Shown here piece after piece: positions 13,322 to 23,220 of a stretch of 64,000 bases of DNA; positions within the stretch are counted from its first letter, which is position 1; the number at the start of each line of letters is the position of its first letter. The notes beneath the pieces were generated by a model. The model made no database searches and had not been told where the DNA came from. It saw nothing but the letters and a program-made list of their open reading frames with translations. The DNA is taken from positions 124,001-188,000 of the forward strand of contig NZ_JAJAPW010000003.1 of the NCBI RefSeq assembly GCF_020523925.1. The letters are read 5' to 3'. The DNA is from Neotamlana laminarinivorans. GTDB taxonomy: Bacteria; Bacteroidota; Bacteroidia; Flavobacteriales; Flavobacteriaceae. Both the position numbers and the translations under genes were made by a program.

Positions 13322-14596
13322 TTAATTTTTCAAAATTTTATAAGATACCCTACCGTTATTATTATGAAAATTTAAAATATAAAGCCCACTATTGAGGTGT
13401 GATACATCAAAATTATAAGATTTTTTATTAGCATTTATAATTTTATCTCTTGTTAGTTGCTCAATAAATTTACCGTTTGCATCATAAAGCTCTATTAGTA
13501 AATTATCATTGGAAATAAATTCAATTTCAATCTCTAAAATGTTGTAGACAGGGTTGTTTTTTAAAGATACATTAAGGTTAAATTTTTCAGAAGAATCTAA
13601 TGTAGTATTGCTTAAGGTGGTTTCGTCTAATTTGTATAGTGTTGTGCCGCTAGCATAAGCTAAGCTAGAGTTTAAAATAATAATTCGGTTTAAATTACTA
13701 CCAATACCTGTGTCTGTCCATGTTTGTCCACCATCATTAGTTTCATGTATTCTTGTGTTATGGCCACTCATCCAGCCTCGTGTTTCAGAAATAAATCCAA
13801 CGGCTTGTATATTGGTTTCTGGAGCATCGTACATTTGCCAGGTTATGCCACCATCTTCAGATTTTATTAATTTACCAGGATGTGGCGACACAGATGATAT
13901 TGAACCAAACATTATATTAGGATTGTTAGTTAATATTTGTAATTTCCATAGATATTCACCTTGAATTCCTGAATTAAATATTTCGGTCCAAGTTACGCCA
14001 CCATCTGTGGTTTTTAACAGAGTAGCTCCTTGAGCATTTCGTCCAGCAACAAAGCCTGTAGTTTCTGTTAAAAATTTTATTTCAACTAAGGCATTAGCAT
14101 GAGCAGACATATCTGTAGTAACCCAGGTGTTACCACTATCTGTGGATTTTATAATTTGGGCCGGGGTAAAGTATGCTCCGCAACCGTATATTGTAGATGT
14201 TCCAATGGTTTCTAAACCACAAATAGCAGGTGGGTTGGGTGTTATGTTGTCTATAATATTCCACGTATTTCCACCATCTTCAGTTTTTAGTAATGTACTA
14301 TTTAGTGTACCAACAAAACCAATATTTTCATTTAAAAACTCAACATTTCTAAAATAGTAATCACCTCCTAAATCACTTTCTGATAATTGTTGTGTCCAAC
14401 TAGCCCCACCATCAGTTGTTTTATAAATGGCGGCGTAGTATCCGTTTGCAGCCCACCCTAAATTATTATTGAGAAAAAAAATATCATCAAAACGTTGCCC
14501 GTTTGGGTTAGATATTGCATCTGGAAGTGCTTCCCACGAAAGTTGAGCATGGGTTATATTATAGGTTAATAGCATTAAAATTAGAATATTTTTCAT
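13322..14596 (-). CDS. Ycf48/BNR-repeat protein with type IX sorting domain
   Basis: The start is taken at the ATG ending at 14596; a TTG two codons upstream is less likely. A signal peptide ends near ITHAQ. The body contains repeated KTTDGGxSWT-type motifs (YKTTDGGASWTQ, LKTEDGGNTWN, IKSTDSGNTWV, LKTTDGGVTWTE, IKSEDGGITWQ, HETNDGGQTWTD), so it is a beta-propeller of the BNR/Ycf48 type. The final 80 or so residues (VYNILEIEIEF, then SGLYILNFHNN and a basic end) fit a T9SS type A sorting domain, predicting secretion to the cell surface. Ligand unknown. Confidence 0.82.
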   Translation of the reverse strand: MKNILILMLLTYNITHAQLSWEALPDAISNPNGQRFDDIFFLNNNLGWAANGYYAAIYKTTDGGASWTQQLSESDLGGDYYFRNVEFLNENIGFVGTLNSTLLKTEDGGNTWNIIDNITPNPPAICGLETIGTSTIYGCGAYFTPAQIIKSTDSGNTWVTTDMSAHANALVEIKFLTETTGFVAGRNAQGATLLKTTDGGVTWTEIFNSGIQGEYLWKLQILTNNPNIMFGSISSVSPHPGKLIKSEDGGITWQMYDAPETNIQAVGFISETRGWMSGHNTRIHETNDGGQTWTDTGIGSNLNRIIILNSSLAYASGTTLYKLDETTLSNTTLDSSEKFNLNVSLKNNPVYNILEIEIEFISNDNLLIELYDANGKFIEQLTRDKIINANKKSYNFDVSHLNSGLYILNFHNNNGRVSYKILKN

Positions 14597-14641
14597 GTAC
14601 AAGAATTAGGTTTTTTGCAAAGTGGTTTTGGCTGCTTAATA

Positions 14642-15433
14642 TTAATTAATTTTTACATTAGAATGCATATTTCTAAGTATACTAACTACACTTTTTACGG
14701 CCAAAAAACTGGTTTTTGGATTACTTGGACTTGGTTTGTTTTCTGTACGTGTGTATATTTTTCCAAAATCGCCTTCGCACGTAATCTCATGCATATTGCT
14801 AGTTGCATTTGGGTCGGCAACAATATTTATGGTTAAATCTTCACATTTTGATGCAAAATAAATACTTGCAGCAACATTAATGTTTTTTGGGAACATACTT
14901 ATGGCTTCATCTACCTTGCCCTTCCAAACAGTTTCGGCTGATGTAATTGATGATAAATCTATGTTTGAGCTATCAAAAAATGGAGCGCCTTCTAAGCTTT
15001 TTGGGTGTTTGGTTGTTTTAATATTTATTGCTTTAATTTCATCATTTACAGCTTTTATAGCATCTAAACCGGCAATGGCACCAACCGGTAATATTATTTC
15101 GCAATATTTTAATGTGTTTAAAGCAGCCTTGTTTTGGTAAAGACCACCAGTGCTAATTACAATTAATTTTTTGCCAATTTTATCTAATTCATCAAATTTG
15201 AGTAGTTGTGTAACTACATCTTTGTTTGCACATTCAATGATAATGTCGGTGTCTTCTATTAAATCTGAAGTAATTTCTTTTCTAAAATCAATTGGCTGGT
15301 CTTTCAAATTAAATTCTGGGTCGTTAACTTCTTTTCTTGCAACAACATATCTTAATTGAAAATTAGAATCGTTCATAATCCATTTTCCGAGATATTTTCC
15401 AATATTTCCAAAGCCTATTATGGTTACTTTCAC
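14642..15433 (-). CDS. Aspartate dehydrogenase-like protein (NadX/DUF108 family)
   Basis: The 263-residue protein starts with a GTG codon (bases 15431-15433); no in-frame ATG precedes it. GFGNIGKYLG is a Rossmann dinucleotide-binding motif. GAIAGLDAIKAV, FPKNINVAASIYFAS, ADPNATSNMHEITCEGDFG and NPKTSFLAVKSV match the aspartate dehydrogenase C-terminal domain. Such enzymes convert L-aspartate to iminoaspartate (first step of NAD synthesis) or run in reverse, and some relatives act on other amino acids. No nadA or nadC genes are next to it, so the pathway role is inferred from family only. Confidence 0.82.
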   Translation of the reverse strand: MKVTIIGFGNIGKYLGKWIMNDSNFQLRYVVARKEVNDPEFNLKDQPIDFRKEITSDLIEDTDIIIECANKDVVTQLLKFDELDKIGKKLIVISTGGLYQNKAALNTLKYCEIILPVGAIAGLDAIKAVNDEIKAINIKTTKHPKSLEGAPFFDSSNIDLSSITSAETVWKGKVDEAISMFPKNINVAASIYFASKCEDLTINIVADPNATSNMHEITCEGDFGKIYTRTENKPSPSNPKTSFLAVKSVVSILRNMHSNVKIN

Positions 15434-15594
15434 AGGGATAATTTTAATGTTCAGGTTTTAATTTTTTTAAAGATATAATAAAATTTTAAAAAAGATTTTT
15501 AAAAATGAGTAAGAGCAGACGAAGAGGTTAAATAATTAAGTTTTTTTATGTTTTAATTAAAATGAAGATTTGTGTTTCTGTTTATTTTGAAAAT

Positions 15595-15623
15595 AAAAAC
15601 CCTAACCAAAAGCCAGGGTTTTT
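15595..15623 (-). terminator. Terminator of the gatCAB/aspS operon
   Basis: Read leftward, a nine-base stem (AAAAACCCT/AGGGTTTTT) closes an 11-base loop and ends in a T tract. It lies 22 bases after the gatB/aspS stop codon. Confidence 0.8.
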
Positions 15624-15645
15624 ATAGAAAATATTTAGACTATTT

Positions 15646-18600
15646 TTATTTGTTTCTCATCACTTTAACGTTCATTTCTTCTACTTTTTTATCAGAAAGT
15701 AAGGAAGGTGCTCCAAATAGTAAATCGTCGCTAGTACCAGTTTTAGGGAAAGCCATAACCTCGCGAATAGAGGTTTTCTTTTCTAAAATCATCATCAATC
15801 TATCCACACCCCAAGCAATGCCACCATGTGGTGGCGCACCGTAATGGAATGCTTTGTACATGGTGCCAACGCTTTTAAGCATTTCATCTTTGTTGTAGCC
15901 CATGTTTTTGTAAGTAGCCTCTAAAATTTCAGGTTTATGCGCACGTACCGAGCCGCCACCAATTTCGTAACCGTTAAGTATTAAATCGTATTGCTGTGCG
16001 ATAATGCTTCCTATTTCTTCTTCCTTGCCATTCATGTGTTTTTCTATGTCGTAAACAGCTGGCATCGAGAATGGGTTGTGGGTAAACGTCCAACGACCTT
16101 CATCGGTTTTTTCAAACATTGGGAAATCAATTACCCAAGCAGGTCGTAATTCTTTAGGGTTAATTAATTTTAACATGCTTCCTAATTCTTGACGAACAGC
16201 GTCTAAAGCCTTGTTTGCTGTAGCATAATCGGCGGCAGAGAAAAATACGATATCGCCAACTTGTGCATTTGTTGTTTCAATAATTTTGCTAGCAATGTCT
16301 TCACCTAAAAATTTAATAATAGGCGATTGTAAGTCGTTTTCGTTTACAATAATATAAGCTAAACCACCTAAACCATATTGTTGGGCAAGCGTGGTAAGTT
16401 TTTCTATTTGTCCTTTAGATAAGCGTTTTTTACCTTGCTCTTTAGCCGATACTTTTATGCATTTAACAATACCGCCATCTTCAATAGGTTTACTAAATAC
16501 CTGGAAAGTCGTGTCTTTTACAATATCTGTAATGTCTTGCAGTTTTAAGCCAAAGCGTAAATCTGGACGGTCGCAACCGTAAAAATCCATAGCTTCTTTA
16601 TAGGTTAACACTTCAAACGGACGTAAAATCCATTTTTTACCATAAATTTTGCTAACAATAGTGTTAAACATTTTAGTGTTTAAATCTATTATTTGTTGCA
16701 TGCTAGCGTAGGCCATTTCAATATCCAATTGCGTGAATTCTGGTTGGCGGTCTCCACGAGAATCTTCGTCTCTAAAACAACGTGCTAACTGGAAATACTT
16801 TTCGTAGCCGCTAACCATTAGCATTTGCTTAAATTGCTGTGGTGCTTGTGGTAAAGTATAAAATGCACCGGCTTGTTTACGAGAAGGCACAATAAATTCA
16901 CGGGCGCCTTCATCGGTTCCGGCACTTAAAATTGGCGTTTCAATTTCTAAGAAATCTTCATCGTCTAAAATGTCGCGCATTAATTTTATAACCTTGTGGC
17001 GATTAACAATTGTGCGACGTACATCGTTATTTCTGTGATCTAAATATTTGTATTGAAAACGTACGTTTTCGTTAGTTTTTGTAGCGCGTTTTATTTCGAA
17101 AGGCAAGGTTCTAGATAGGTTTAAAATATCTAAATCGCTGGCTTCTAATTCAATTTTACCGGTACGTAAACTTGGGTTGTAATCGTCTTCCTTACGTTGT
17201 ACAATTTTACCAGAAACTGTAATTACAGATTCGGGTTTTAATTTAACAAGTTCGTCTAAATTTGCAAACGACTCCCGACTTAAGCGCACTTGGAAAATTT
17301 CGGTGCTCGAATCGCGTAAATCGATAAACATTAACTCACCATGATCGCGCACACTAGAAACCCAGCCAGAAAAAGTAACTTCTGCGTTAATGTTGTCTTC
17401 GTTAATATCGGTGATTAAATGTGTACGATATTCATCTTTTATAACAAGCGGAATTTCTGGAAGAATTTCTTCTTGTTGTTTACTAGTTTTATTAGCTTCG
17501 ACTGCGCTCAGCTTGACATTACTTGTGCTTCCGTCTTCGGTCTCCGTGCTTCCGTCACCGGCTAACTGCTTTAAAATACCTTCGCGAATTACTTTACCCG
17601 AAGCGCCTTTACCAATAATGCCAATAACTTTACCAACTAAAATACCTGCTTTTCCTTGGTTTCCGGCTTTAATATCGGTTGCAATAGCTTCGTTTTCGCT
17701 TATAACTTTGGCAATAGCATCTTGTATTTTTTCTTCGGAAATGGTATTCGCTTCAAAATAAGATTTGTAATCGAATTTCGGATCATCTAACAACGATTGT
17801 ATCGCGTTTTGAGCTAAAACTGGAGTTACTTTTTCAGCTTTAAACAAACTGAAAATAGTAATGAAATCTTGAATATTTTCAATTTTAATATAATCTTCGG
17901 CCTTTACATTATTGGTTAATGTTTTTGCAACAAACGATGGATCTTGTAATGCGTTATTTATAGCTACAAAAGTTTCAGAACGTAAACTATCGGCTGTAAA
18001 AAACTTAGCATCTTGCGGTAAAACGCCGCCGCCAATTAAAATAGATTCAACAGCAAAAGGTAAAGCGCTTAAATCGACATCAATGCTCTCGATAACCGAT
18101 TTTATGTTTACAAAAGGTAAATCGGGCTCCGAAATAAATCGGTAATCGGCCTCGAATTCCTTTTTACGCATGGTTTTAGTTTGCTTTAAATCGGCATCAA
18201 AAAGCACGGTGGTTTGGTCTGGCCTAAACGCATTGTTTTCAATAAAATAATTAAGTTGTTTTTCAACTTCTTCTTTTAAAGCATCAACCATAAACTTAAA
18301 CGAGTTTAAGTTTTTTATTTCGGTACGAGGGTTTAAATCGTTGCTGTTTTTTTTACGAAGTGAAACAGAAACATCCGATTTAAATTCACCTTTTTCTAAG
18401 TTAGCTTCAGAAATTTTTAGATTTTGAACAATACGTTGAATGTATTGCGCGTAAGTTGAAGCATCTTCGATATGGCGAATACATGGGTCGGTAACAATTT
18501 CAATTAGCGGTACGCCGGCTTTATTAAAATCGACTAGCGATACCTTTTTTTCGTGCATTAATTTTGCGGCATCTTCCTCGATATGTACTTGCGTTAAACT

Positions 18601-18990
18601 TACGGTAAATTGGCTACCGTCGTTACGAAAACACGATACTTTTCCGTCTGGAATTACCGGGTTGTGATACTGCGTAATTTGTATGTTTTTTGGGTTGTCT
18701 GGGTATTCGTAATGTTTTCTGTCCCAAGAAATAACTTCGTTTTTAAACGATGATTCTACAGCTTTTCCAAAATAAATGGCCTTAGTAACAGCGTCTTTGT
18801 TTATTGCTGGTAAAACACCCATTTGTCCTGTACAAACCGAACAAATATTTTGGTTTGGTGTTTCAATTTCTTGGTTCGGACAAGAACAAAATAACTTTGT
18901 TTTTGTATTTAAACGTACGTGAGTTTCTAAACCTATAACAAGTTCTAGCTCGTGTTTATCTAACAGTTGGTTTAATTGTTCTAGCTCCAT
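15646..18990 (-). CDS. gatB/aspS: GatB-aspartyl-tRNA synthetase fusion protein
   Basis: One 1114-residue ORF joins two normally separate proteins. Residues 1 to about 475 are GatB, the tRNA-binding amidotransferase subunit: IGLETHV near residue 20 and a CSC...CSVC zinc motif. Residues from about 522 (YRTHLITDINEDN) form a bacterial-type AspRS: an OB-fold anticodon domain, class II motif 2 with FRDED near residue 738, a GAD insert near 820-900, and motif 3 GGIAWGVDRL near 1058. The linker (about 475-520) is low in hydrophobics, contains a DGSTETE/DGSTSNV duplication and overlaps a dispersed DNA repeat. The ATG overlaps the gatA stop by one base. I recall such fusions being annotated in related genomes. 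It presumably channels Asp-tRNA(Asn) to amidation. Confidence 0.95.
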   Translation of the reverse strand: MELEQLNQLLDKHELELVIGLETHVRLNTKTKLFCSCPNQEIETPNQNICSVCTGQMGVLPAINKDAVTKAIYFGKAVESSFKNEVISWDRKHYEYPDNPKNIQITQYHNPVIPDGKVSCFRNDGSQFTVSLTQVHIEEDAAKLMHEKKVSLVDFNKAGVPLIEIVTDPCIRHIEDASTYAQYIQRIVQNLKISEANLEKGEFKSDVSVSLRKKNSNDLNPRTEIKNLNSFKFMVDALKEEVEKQLNYFIENNAFRPDQTTVLFDADLKQTKTMRKKEFEADYRFISEPDLPFVNIKSVIESIDVDLSALPFAVESILIGGGVLPQDAKFFTADSLRSETFVAINNALQDPSFVAKTLTNNVKAEDYIKIENIQDFITIFSLFKAEKVTPVLAQNAIQSLLDDPKFDYKSYFEANTISEEKIQDAIAKVISENEAIATDIKAGNQGKAGILVGKVIGIIGKGASGKVIREGILKQLAGDGSTETEDGSTSNVKLSAVEANKTSKQQEEILPEIPLVIKDEYRTHLITDINEDNINAEVTFSGWVSSVRDHGELMFIDLRDSSTEIFQVRLSRESFANLDELVKLKPESVITVSGKIVQRKEDDYNPSLRTGKIELEASDLDILNLSRTLPFEIKRATKTNENVRFQYKYLDHRNNDVRRTIVNRHKVIKLMRDILDDEDFLEIETPILSAGTDEGAREFIVPSRKQAGAFYTLPQAPQQFKQMLMVSGYEKYFQLARCFRDEDSRGDRQPEFTQLDIEMAYASMQQIIDLNTKMFNTIVSKIYGKKWILRPFEVLTYKEAMDFYGCDRPDLRFGLKLQDITDIVKDTTFQVFSKPIEDGGIVKCIKVSAKEQGKKRLSKGQIEKLTTLAQQYGLGGLAYIIVNENDLQSPIIKFLGEDIASKIIETTNAQVGDIVFFSAADYATANKALDAVRQELGSMLKLINPKELRPAWVIDFPMFEKTDEGRWTFTHNPFSMPAVYDIEKHMNGKEEEIGSIIAQQYDLILNGYEIGGGSVRAHKPEILEATYKNMGYNKDEMLKSVGTMYKAFHYGAPPHGGIAWGVDRLMMILEKKTSIREVMAFPKTGTSDDLLFGAPSLLSDKKVEEMNVKVMRNK
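17495..17518 (-). repeat. Dispersed repeat, copy 2, inside the gatB/aspS linker
   Basis: Read on the minus strand, the sequence contains GCTGAGCGCAGTCGAAGC, identical to the core of the intergenic copy at 4064-4082. It is translated in frame as part of the linker (about residues 491-499, KLSAVEA). Confidence 0.85.
17525..17556 (-). repeat. Direct repeat in the GatB-AspRS linker
   Basis: GTGCTTCCGTC occurs at 17525-17535 and 17546-17556, a 21-base period that encodes a repeated DGST heptad. It is clearly richer in GC than the flanking coding sequence and lies beside the dispersed repeat. Confidence 0.75.
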
Positions 18991-20390
18991 TATATCGTGT
19001 CTTTTAAGAAGTTAGCAAACTTCAAAACAAGTTCGTCGTTTTGTTTGGCGGCTGTAATTTGTAAGCCGGTTTCTGTGCCTTGTGGCACGGTTAAAGTTGG
19101 TAATTGCCCAAGGCTAAAACCAACGGTGTAAGCATCGCTTAAATACATGGCGTGCGGATCTTTTAAACTATCGCCAATTTTAGGCGGTGTATTTGGTGTA
19201 ACTGGTGAAAGTATAATGTCTACTTTCTTAAAATCGTCTTCAAAGTTGTTTGCAATGGCATCGCGAAGTGCTAAGCCTTTTAAATAAATAGCATCCGAAA
19301 ACCCTTGAGAAAGTACTTGGTTGCCACCAACAATTCTGCGTTTTGTTTCTTCAGAAAAATTTTCCGATCGTGTTACAGCGTAAGTTTCTTTTAAATTTTC
19401 TGCTTCAATACGGTTGCCATAGTTGGTGCCATCTAAACGCGATAGGTTAGAGGCTGTTTCGGCCATGGCTAAGGTGTAGTATGTAGATACTAAAGTATTC
19501 GATTCGAAGAAATCTAAAGTTTTTACCTCGATGCCTTTGGCTTTTATTTTTTCTATAGCTGAAAGAAAATCGGCTTTAATTTCAGGTGAAATCGCATCAC
19601 TTTCAATAAAGTTTTTAAAATATCCTACTGATTTTATGTCTTCGGAAGTTTTTATAGTGTCTGCATCAATTTCCGCGGAAGCGTAAGTGGTTTGATCTTT
19701 AACATCCTTTCCGCTCATAACGTTAAGCACAATGCGGATATCTTCAACCGATTTTGCAATTGGCCCAACACAATCTGTAGACGATGCGTAGGCCATAATG
19801 CCGTAGCGAGAAATGCGCCCATAAGTTGGTTTTAGTCCATAAATATTGTTGTAACCAGCGGGTTGACGAATTGAACCACCGGTATCGCCACCTATAGAAA
19901 ATACGGTATAATCTTTAGCAACATTTACAGCAGAACCACCACTAGAACCACCGCCAACAAGTTCAGGGTTTACAGCATTTTTTACAGCACCAAAAATGGT
20001 GTTTTCGCTAGACGAACCATGGCCAAAACTATCGCAGTTTTCTTTAACTAAAGGAATAGCTCCGGCATCTAACAATTTTTGAATGGCTGTTGCAGTGTAA
20101 GCCGATTTGTAATTTTTTAGCAAATTAGAACTTGCCGTTGTGGTTGTACCTTGCACCATGTAAACATCTTTAATGCCAAACGGGATGCCTTCTAAAAGGC
20201 CAATGTTTTCGCCGTTGGCAATTTTTTTGTCTACTTTTGCAGCCAATTTTAAGGCTTTATCGCTTAGCAAACTGTTTACAGTATTGAGAGTGTTTTGGCT
20301 TAAAAGCTCCAATTTTTCTTGAACCAAATCGGTGCAAGTTATTTCTTTGTTTACCAGTTGTTGGTGTATTTTTAGTATTTGTGAGCTCAT
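18990..20390 (-). CDS. gatA: Asp/Glu-tRNA amidotransferase subunit A
   Basis: GatA hydrolyses glutamine and passes ammonia to GatB, where misacylated Asp-tRNA(Asn) or Glu-tRNA(Gln) is amidated. The amidase signature is intact: GIPFGIKDVY supplies the catalytic Lys near residue 73, VGGGSSGGSAVNVA holds the cis-Ser and GGDTGGSIRQPAGY the nucleophilic Ser. At 466 residues the length is normal. It starts two bases after the gatC stop and its own stop overlaps the gatB/aspS start by one base, so the three genes are one transcription unit with likely translational coupling. Confidence 0.96.
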   Translation of the reverse strand: MSSQILKIHQQLVNKEITCTDLVQEKLELLSQNTLNTVNSLLSDKALKLAAKVDKKIANGENIGLLEGIPFGIKDVYMVQGTTTTASSNLLKNYKSAYTATAIQKLLDAGAIPLVKENCDSFGHGSSSENTIFGAVKNAVNPELVGGGSSGGSAVNVAKDYTVFSIGGDTGGSIRQPAGYNNIYGLKPTYGRISRYGIMAYASSTDCVGPIAKSVEDIRIVLNVMSGKDVKDQTTYASAEIDADTIKTSEDIKSVGYFKNFIESDAISPEIKADFLSAIEKIKAKGIEVKTLDFFESNTLVSTYYTLAMAETASNLSRLDGTNYGNRIEAENLKETYAVTRSENFSEETKRRIVGGNQVLSQGFSDAIYLKGLALRDAIANNFEDDFKKVDIILSPVTPNTPPKIGDSLKDPHAMYLSDAYTVGFSLGQLPTLTVPQGTETGLQITAAKQNDELVLKFANFLKDTI

Positions 20391-20392
20391 TT

Positions 20393-20659
20393 TTATTCTT
20401 CTATAACTTTAGAAACTACTAAATAACCGTTTTTTTCTTTTGGGAAATTTTCAATGATGATTTGCTTTTCTAAGGCAGAACTTTCTATAACAACATCGTC
20501 GCGTAAATCTTGAAGCGAAACACTGTTTTTGTTTAAGTTGATGGATGCTTCGCTGTTTATTTCAGCATTTTTAATGTCATCAAACAATTTGTTAACAGCC
20601 TCACTCGGTTTTGCACCTTTAATGCTCGATAAAATATCAACCGTCATTAATTTACTCAT
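20393..20659 (-). CDS. gatC: Asp/Glu-tRNA amidotransferase subunit C
   Basis: GatC wraps around GatA and GatB and stabilises the complex. This 88-residue protein is weakly conserved, as is usual. The segment LQDLRDDVV and the C-terminal ENFPKEKNGYLVVSKVIEE match the GatC ending (consensus like NAPExxxGxFxVPKVIE). Its position as first gene before gatA supports the call. The ATG lies about 20 bases after the U-run of the leader terminator. An internal ATG at residue 5 is an alternative start. Confidence 0.85.
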   Translation of the reverse strand: MSKLMTVDILSSIKGAKPSEAVNKLFDDIKNAEINSEASINLNKNSVSLQDLRDDVVIESSALEKQIIIENFPKEKNGYLVVSKVIEE

Positions 20660-20675
20660 GGTAATTCTTTTAGTA

Positions 20676-20706
20676 TTAAAAAAAGCCCTCCGTAACCGGA
20701 AGGCTT
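20676..20706 (-). terminator. Attenuator terminator before gatC
   Basis: On the minus strand AAGCCTTCCG and CGGAGGGCTT form a 10-base stem with one U-G pair and a GTTA loop, followed by a U-rich tract. It lies inside the operon leader between the Asn-rich peptide and gatC. Its 5' arm (20698-20703) can alternatively pair with 20726-20731. Confidence 0.9.
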
Positions 20707-20733
20707 ATATATATTTAAACAATAACCTTCCAA
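20696..20733 (-). promoter_or_regulatory. Candidate antiterminator helix of the gat operon leader
   Basis: TTGGAAGG (20733-20726) is complementary to CCTTCCGG (20703-20696), eight pairs including two U-G. Forming it consumes the 5' arm of the terminator hairpin, so the two structures exclude each other. GGAAGG begins five bases after the leader stop codon, so a ribosome at the stop would cover it. Confidence 0.75.
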
Positions 20734-20736
20734 ACC

Positions 20737-20784
20737 CTAAAAAATAGGATTGTTGAAATTATTATTGTTGTTATTGTTTTTCAT
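20737..20784 (-). CDS. Asn-rich leader peptide of the gat operon
   Basis: A 15-codon ORF reads MKNNNNNNNFNNPIF and stop: nine of fifteen residues are Asn, using both AAC and AAT. It lies right behind a -7 box (20801-20808) and right before mutually exclusive antiterminator and terminator hairpins. This is the layout of amino-acid-operon attenuators, where ribosome stalling at scarce charged tRNA decides read-through. A small hairpin (20733-20751, AATCCTA/TAGGGTT) overlaps the last codons and may synchronise transcription with translation. Asn is the amino acid whose tRNA charging the downstream enzymes can supply. The peptide itself probably has no function once made. No start other than the ATG at 20784 is plausible. 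Confidence 0.85.
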   Translation of the reverse strand: MKNNNNNNNFNNPIF

Positions 20785-20800
20785 TAATTTTTAATTGCCT

Positions 20801-20808
20801 CAAAGATA
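20801..20808 (-). promoter_or_regulatory. -7 box of the gatCAB/aspS operon
   Basis: On the minus strand the bases read TATCTTTG, fitting TAnnTTTG. The predicted start of transcription is near 20794, about ten bases before the leader-peptide ATG. No TTTG element is seen at the ideal -33 position. Confidence 0.55.
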
Positions 20809-21176
20809 TGGAGAAATAAGCGATTAAGCATGGTATTTATAAATGAAATAACAGATATTGCGAAATTAACAGAAATAGGTTTTATTCTTAATGTCTTTTT
20901 ATTAATTATGTAATATTGATAAATAGCTCTTTGTTATTTGGTGTTAATTTGAAACTTTTAACTTACGTTGTAAGAATAATATTTATTAGTTAATTTTAAT
21001 ATAAGCAGTTTAAGCTAGTTTTGGTAATTTTACGGTTTTTATTAATAAAGAAAATAATCTAAAACTCTATTTAAGCTTGTTTTTAGTTGTTTTAAGAGGT
21101 TTTTGTTATAATTAACAATTGTTGATAAATTTCTTGTAGTGTCGATAAAAAGCTTTTTAAAAGGGCTTTTATTTTG
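20809..21176. other. Gene-free region between divergent gat operon and gyrB
   Basis: This 368-base region is very AT-rich and holds no convincing ORF or RNA gene; a leftward 74-codon frame at its right side looks like chance. Promoters for the two divergent units lie at its edges. Confidence 0.5.
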
Positions 21177-21184
21177 TATATTTG
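21177..21184 (+). promoter_or_regulatory. -7 box upstream of gyrB
   Basis: TATATTTG matches the TAnnTTTG consensus, with a predicted transcription start near 21191, only a few bases before the hairpin at 21196-21221. Confidence 0.5.
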
Positions 21185-21195
21185 GTTGCCTTACG

Positions 21196-21221
21196 AAGAT
21201 GCTAAAATTGCATCTTTTTTT
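21196..21221 (+). terminator. Terminator-like hairpin in the gyrB leader
   Basis: AAGATGC and GCATCTT pair around a seven-base loop, followed by a run of T (21215-21221). It points toward gyrB and lies between its apparent -7 box and its start codon, so it could attenuate transcription or cap the 5' end. A terminator for unseen upstream transcription is the alternative. Confidence 0.6.
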
Positions 21222-21258
21222 GTCTAAGAATAAATTTAACCCAAACGAATTAAGATAA

Positions 21259-23220
<1,962 letters not shown>

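Follow-up and report, generated by a model that had tools for sequence, protein, structure and literature searches.

The charging state of tRNA(Asn) governs amidation genes in the T-box system. Classical leader-peptide attenuators, among the examples given in PMC1262725, include those of trp, his, thr and phe, of trpS and leuS in Streptomyces, and of pheST in gamma-proteobacteria. In Flavobacterium psychrophilum, PMC9723704 reports strong signs that operons for amino-acid biosynthesis are preceded by leader-peptide attenuators. Here we describe a locus from the same bacterial family, in a 64,000-nucleotide stretch of Neotamlana laminarinivorans (assembly GCF_020523925.1, contig NZ_JAJAPW010000003.1, positions 124,001 to 188,000; hereafter the window), where an Asn-rich leader open reading frame (ORF) precedes the operon gatC-gatA-gatB/aspS. 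This leader is very probably a classical ribosome-mediated (trp-type) transcription attenuator sensing charged tRNA(Asn).

Like the attenuators described in PMC1262725, the leader combines a short ORF in which the regulatory codon is frequent, helices that alternate and a terminator ahead of the first gene, with a synthetase gene as target. It differs from them in its regulatory amino acid, Asn, and in having a tRNA-dependent amidation operon as target. As in the T-box case, amidation genes would be under the control of tRNA(Asn) charging. However, a T-box binds tRNA directly, while here sensing would fall to the translating ribosome, and the 1-kb region scanned gave no T-box match. No Asn attenuator or attenuated gatCAB operon in Bacteroidota was found in the literature searched. 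The mechanism is of a known kind; what appears to be new, within that literature, is the amino acid sensed, the operon controlled and the link with a lost asparagine synthetase. Ribosome-mediated attenuation would gain asparagine as a regulatory amino acid that we did not find described there. A survey of attenuation cited as Lopatovskaya 2010 in PMC4833913 might hold related predictions. The main text of PMC9723704 contains no word beginning "asparagin", and overlap through its Table S7 is possible.

The leader lies on the minus strand of the window and was read directly, running from the -7 box through the ORF and helices to gatC.

20801-20808, minus strand: flavobacterial -7 promoter box TATCTTTG (direct read)
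20737-20784, minus strand: leader peptide ORF, MKNNNNNNNFNNPIF followed by a stop (15 codons, 9 Asn)
20745-20769, minus strand: region 1, the Asn-codon stretch and 5' side of the predicted 1:2 hairpin (folds; conserved pairs)
20718-20739, minus strand: region 2, 3' side of the predicted 1:2 hairpin, containing GGAAGG, the 5' arm of the antiterminator (folds; conserved pairs)
20696-20733, minus strand: predicted antiterminator 2:3, UUGGAAGGUU (20733-20724) with AGCCUUCCGG (20705-20696) (-12.6 kcal/mol, z -3.6)
20676-20706, minus strand: predicted intrinsic terminator 3:4, stem 20706-20683 plus T-run to 20676 (-17.4 kcal/mol)

The flavobacterial -7 consensus is TAnnTTTG. From 20784 to 20737 the ORF reads ATG AAA AAC AAT AAC AAC AAT AAT AAT TTC AAC AAT CCT ATT TTT TAG, its stop is separated by five bases from GGAAGG (20731-20726), and CCTTCC follows at 20703-20698. 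An earlier note on this DNA had placed the -7 box, the 15-codon ORF with nine Asn, GGAAGG, CCTTCC and the terminator, and all of its coordinates hold on the minus-strand read. The note had further proposed GGAAGG/CCTTCC as an antiterminator rivalled by the terminator; folding confirmed this attenuation geometry, at the energies listed above, and added a third helix that had been overlooked. In this predicted 1:2 hairpin, Asn codons at 20769-20745 pair with 20739-20718, so that the hairpin overlaps the regulatory codons and the 1:2, 2:3, 3:4 layout of the trp attenuator is complete. Antiterminator and terminator have one arm in common and are predicted to be mutually exclusive (the pairing is conserved, with no 2:3 covariation).

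Across the 64-kb window, an Asn-rich short ORF with a terminator occurs at one site, versus none in 60 dinucleotide shuffles. The leader is not a chance occurrence. Its 125-nucleotide (nt) fold has z = -5.4 against dinucleotide shuffles, and the terminator stem (10 pairs) is the longest among 10 terminator-like sites on both strands of 14500-21500, where shuffles predict 5.9 sites.

Rfam models were scanned against the 1-kb region. Seven matches were returned up to E = 1, all under gathering score and none a T-box or riboswitch; the T-box covariance model gave no match up to E = 1. These results argue against direct binding of the RNA by a protein, small molecule or uncharged tRNA, in the manner of a T-box or riboswitch, with an incidental ORF. 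We give this explanation almost no weight, as the ORF is also kept in all 55 leaders described below. Membership in Phe_leader and Thr_leader was rejected (31 of 55 and 22.1 of 55 bits). A match to isrJ over the leader (36.7 of 37 bits; E 6.8e-5) was put down to chance similarity with an A/T-rich hairpin plus terminator.

Under the attenuation model, a ribosome supplied with plentiful Asn-tRNA(Asn) would run through the Asn codons to the TAG and cover GGAAGG. With GGAAGG covered, region 3 would pair with region 4 and transcription would stop ahead of gatC. When Asn-tRNA(Asn) is scarce, the ribosome would stall on the Asn codons and occupy region 1; the emerging region 3 would then be captured by region 2, no terminator would form, and gatC-gatA-gatB/aspS would be transcribed. 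Without translation, 1:2 would form first and then the terminator. GatCAB fused to AspRS would make Asn on tRNA(Asn), and the leader would thus sense the product of its own operon. From the sequence, the predicted helices and their conservation, the operon content, and profile searches that returned neither AsnA nor AsnB, we infer stalling, termination, regulation, a response to Asn starvation and a non-discriminating AspRS. Such a mechanism would argue for a coupling of transcription with translation in Bacteroidota.

Conservation was assessed at gatC loci of relatives. A scan with GatC of the window gave 117 relatives; the best 80 were kept, making 81 gatC loci with the window, a sample skewed to near kin because only the best 80 of 117 were retained. 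A regular expression called leaders at 53 of the 81 loci (window included) and a second one added two. A covariance model built from those 55 (R1) recovered the same 55, i.e. the window and 54 of the 80 relatives, and none at the other 26 loci. The leaders are 14-17 amino acids long with 6-10 Asn each (476 of 819 residues in total), and the leader ORF is retained in all of them. Upstream of every leader start lies a TATATTTG/TATCTTTG box, at a distance of 10-23 nt in 54 cases and 41 nt in one. The stop is 3-5 nt ahead of region 2 in 51 of 55 leaders and at -1 or 0 by regular expression in four, close enough for a terminating ribosome to mask region 2.

Given that the region is rich in A and T and that some of the Asn stretch doubles as a helix arm, the Asn run might stem only from base composition and RNA pairing needs, with the leader responding generally to slow or uncoupled translation. 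However, at codons outside the helices Asn is kept even though AAC and AAT replace each other. Codon -5, which is outside the helices, is Asn in 53 of 55 leaders (AAT in 31, AAC in 22), and codon -6 is Asn in 45 (AAT 36, AAC 9). General sensing is also hard to reconcile with the empty shuffles (0 of 60) and with the location of every strong R1 match at gatC, and we regard it as improbable.

These strong matches came from a run of R1 across 299 genomes of the family, with stricter filters that may miss diverged leaders. Twenty-nine genomes each contained one match of at least 99 bits, the next best match scoring 45.7 bits, and all 29 strong matches lie directly upstream of gatC. A leader dispersed through the genome was ruled out by the single strong match per genome.

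The motif NFNNPN is well conserved in the leader peptides, as might be expected of a functional small protein whose hairpin is only a partial terminator. Yet its F and P codons lie within the 1:2 helix (helix columns 27-30 and 36-40), so pairing can explain peptide conservation beyond Asn, and the last residue and position -2 vary. A functional small protein is therefore very unlikely, and attenuation by the translating ribosome remains the preferred explanation.

Pairing was then compared across the alignment. For the antiterminator, 98.6% of cells were paired (54 distinct rows), versus 32-73% with one arm slid. In 1:2 and 3:4 combined, 97.9% of cells were paired and 23 cells had changed on both sides, versus 10.1 in shuffles (0 of 500 reached 23). 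Neither the pairs nor the pair types showing both-side changes outnumbered those in shuffles (reached by 156 and 186 of 500, respectively). The earlier note had asked for a check of conservation with covariation. Conservation held for the Asn run and all helices at 55 of 81 gatC loci; covariation was seen in the terminator and in two 1:2 cells, but not in the antiterminator.

The genes downstream of the leader were assigned as follows.

20393-20659, minus strand: gatC (TIGR00135, 21 bits, under the 47-bit cut-off; operon position; relatives)
18990-20390, minus strand: gatA (TIGR00132, 437 bits, under the 481-bit cut-off)
15646-18990, minus strand: gatB-aspS fusion, 1114 amino acids (GatB NF004012, 394 bits; AspRS NF001750, 715 bits)

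As their scores are under cut-off, gatC and gatA are named by position too. In the fusion protein, GatB spans residues 13-477 and AspRS residues 520-1112, both over curated cut-offs. The gap between gatC and gatA is two bases, and gatA and gatB-aspS overlap by one; this tight spacing makes a single transcript likely. The gatCAB/aspS operon proposed in the earlier note does stand downstream of the leader, but gatB and aspS, whose fusion the note had overlooked, are one gene of 1114 codons. Fusion-length frames (1115-1130 amino acids) were found for 45 of 46 gatB genes of the family, and the other, an 809-amino-acid frame (G170), is taken to be cut by its contig. The AspRS start was read directly in all 18 GatB genomes where it was fetched. 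Another family of the class (f13) also has fusion-length frames, of 1109-1121 amino acids, in all eight genomes searched (L161-L168); the eight f13 stretches read held neither an Asn-rich ORF nor, at E up to 0.1, a match to R1. In the window, gatB-aspS is followed 212 bases further on, in the same orientation, by an aspartate dehydrogenase-like gene (14642-15433; under NCBIfam cut-offs), which may bear on aspartate supply.

Gene content suggests what the fusion is for. Among the 299 family genomes, GatB was found in 46, AsnA in 22, and canonical AsnB in 225; canonical AsnB is our name for NF006949 matches at E <= 1e-140, of which 223 of 225 are over the model cut-off. Canonical AsnB or AsnA was present in none of the 46 GatB genomes versus 237 of the 253 genomes without GatB. 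The latter include all 225 with canonical AsnB, and 16 of them have none of AsnA, canonical AsnB and GatB. The exclusion between GatB and canonical AsnB has a Fisher p of 5.5e-35, a nominal value as the genomes are related. It is limited to canonical AsnB, because the wider model TIGR01536 reveals AsnB-like proteins in some GatB genomes (e.g. G044 and G134). Of the 29 genomes with a leader, 28 have GatB, and in the other (G124) gatC lies close to the sequence end.

In the window genome, profile searches found no AsnB over cut-off and no AsnA. This genome does encode AsnRS (asnS), whose presence the earlier note had wished to see checked, and it encodes GlnRS. The suggestion in that note that asparagine is the main duty of the operon is strengthened by GlnRS and by the missing synthetases. 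With neither AsnA nor AsnB, the GatCAB operon is probably the only asparagine source of the window genome, in which case the sensed molecule would be the operon's own product. Judged by gene content, the operon would make or charge the amino acid that its leader senses. The GatB-AspRS fusion appears to replace asparagine synthetase, and the leader would tie Asn attenuation to this fusion. The role of GatCAB in asparagine synthesis thereby becomes testable where bacteria also own AsnRS and GlnRS.

A comparable gene content is reported in PMC4206432, where 18 of 547 genera, some of them Bacteroidetes, are listed with AsnRS, GlnRS and GatCAB and without AsnA/B. The window genome resembles the Deinococcus, Thermus and Bdellovibrio cases given there in having AsnRS, GlnRS and GatCAB and lacking AsnA/B. 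Unlike in those cases, there are here two AspRS, one fused to GatB and the other separate (810 bits). Five of the 18 genera are described in PMC4206432 as having a second AspRS, all within Deinococcus-Thermus.

The fused AspRS contains RDHGEL, whose His aligns to the His of RDHGG in 4wj3, an enzyme with both Asp and Asn in its name. We take 4wj3 to be the Pseudomonas aeruginosa enzyme, and its RDHGG His to be a mark of a non-discriminating AspRS. Leu occupies this position in 1eqr and 1efw, presumably the E. coli and Thermus AspRS of the discriminating type. Of 20 further fused genes, 19 carry RDHGEL (all 18 from the family and one of two from f13; L229 gave no regular-expression match), and the second AspRS of the window genome has RDKGF, i.e. 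Lys at that position. Gly at a second specificity position marks a non-discriminating AspRS; the alignment places Asp there in the fused AspRS of the window. NCBIfam models for aspartate--tRNA(Asn) ligase scored the fused AspRS at 207 and 188 bits, versus cut-offs of 353 and 368, and the separate AspRS at 229 and 223 bits, also under cut-off. We assume these models to be archaeal-type and not to cover bacterial-type enzymes. The motif comparisons suggest that the fused AspRS may be non-discriminating and charge tRNA(Asn). Using RF00005 and ARAGORN (scans covering 38 of 39 tRNA matches), we saw one tRNA(Asn) in the window genome, with a U1-A72 pair. PMC4206432 names this pair as required for GatCAB.

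Several observations weigh against regulation by attenuation at these loci. Folding energies favour the terminator over the antiterminator at equilibrium, with medians over the leaders of -12.4 (1:2), -11.5 (2:3) and -16.4 kcal/mol (3:4). Because of this difference, switching would have to be kinetic; the switch of the trp attenuator is likewise kinetic. The antiterminator shows no compensatory change, with no excess over column shuffles (54 distinct rows), because both arms hardly vary. It is supported by conservation rather than by covariation. Of the 23 both-side changes in 1:2 and 3:4, 17 fall in one terminator-closing pair, with four in another terminator pair and two in the 1:2 structure. 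Furthermore, neither R1 nor regular expressions detected a leader at 26 of the 80 gatC loci. Likewise, 18 of the 46 GatB genomes have no leader, though these too are without AsnA and canonical AsnB, which means that the leader is not essential. The idea that the leader marks AsnB-less genomes while leaderless ones have AsnB was ruled out by the same 18 of 18 genomes.

We placed the leader on a quick tree of gatC and gatA with 80 rows (54 with leader and 26 without; L028 was left out because its gatA is cut). The nearest row to the window is Tamlana sedimentorum, 99% identical. The trait requires 12 changes, at least four of them forced by well-supported branches, versus 22.1 in shuffles. As the leaders are alike in sequence, they most likely arose once and were then lost or replaced repeatedly. 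At 24 of the 26 leaderless loci (e.g. L022, L070 and L086), and at none of the 54 leader loci, gatC is preceded at about 40-60 nt by a block like AAAACTTTYGTAATTTT, which an inverted AAAGTTT follows in three of six loci checked. This block is a candidate alternative promoter or operator. A gyrB neighbour, within at most 3 kb, was found at 38 of 54 leader loci and six of 26 leaderless ones; since leaderless loci also lie beside gyrB, one mode of regulation seems to have been exchanged for another without a move of the operon. At Polaribacter loci (e.g. L011, L033, L036, L063 and L079), genes that we take by their sequences to be trpE, trpG and trpD lie opposite gatC, replacing gyrB. Nine loci (L017, L032, L043, L046, L047, L055, L056, L068 and L076) carry extra DNA between terminator and gatC, about 20-180 nt over the usual.

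Asn-rich leaders were also found before asparagine synthetase genes. Upstream regions of asnA were covered for 20 of the 22 asnA genomes, and about seven of the 20 have Asn-rich leaders and terminators: L122, L124, L125, L126, L129 and L131 by ORF filter, and L128 by eye. By eye, L122, L125, L129 and L131 look tandem, with two attenuators in series, and L124, L126 and L128 single. The six found by ORF filter score 34-44 bits with R1. Only one of 20 asnB upstream regions (L146, 340-451, canonical asnB) passed the ORF filter, with the Asn-rich leader MFSYLINNKNNNNYYAMP, its stop, and a terminator; its R1 score of 26.5 bits does not exceed that of a match on the wrong strand. Asn attenuation thus seems to precede Asn genes of different kinds, though not the majority of asnB genes. 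We lean towards a scenario in which, in part of Flavobacteriaceae, GatB-AspRS transamidation replaced AsnA/AsnB, with Asn-codon attenuators of one family accompanying the pathway (gatCAB-aspS, asnA and occasionally asnB). The ribosome, by reading its own Asn-tRNA, would then determine asparagine supply.

Several of the asnA leaders end in PSG, PPG, ASG or AFG before the stop. Weak R1 matches score about 37-46 bits, and two of them precede asnA. Another weak match (39 bits) lies between two tRNA-Glu genes 392 bases apart (G000:C37:88500-89400; L210) and was taken as noise.
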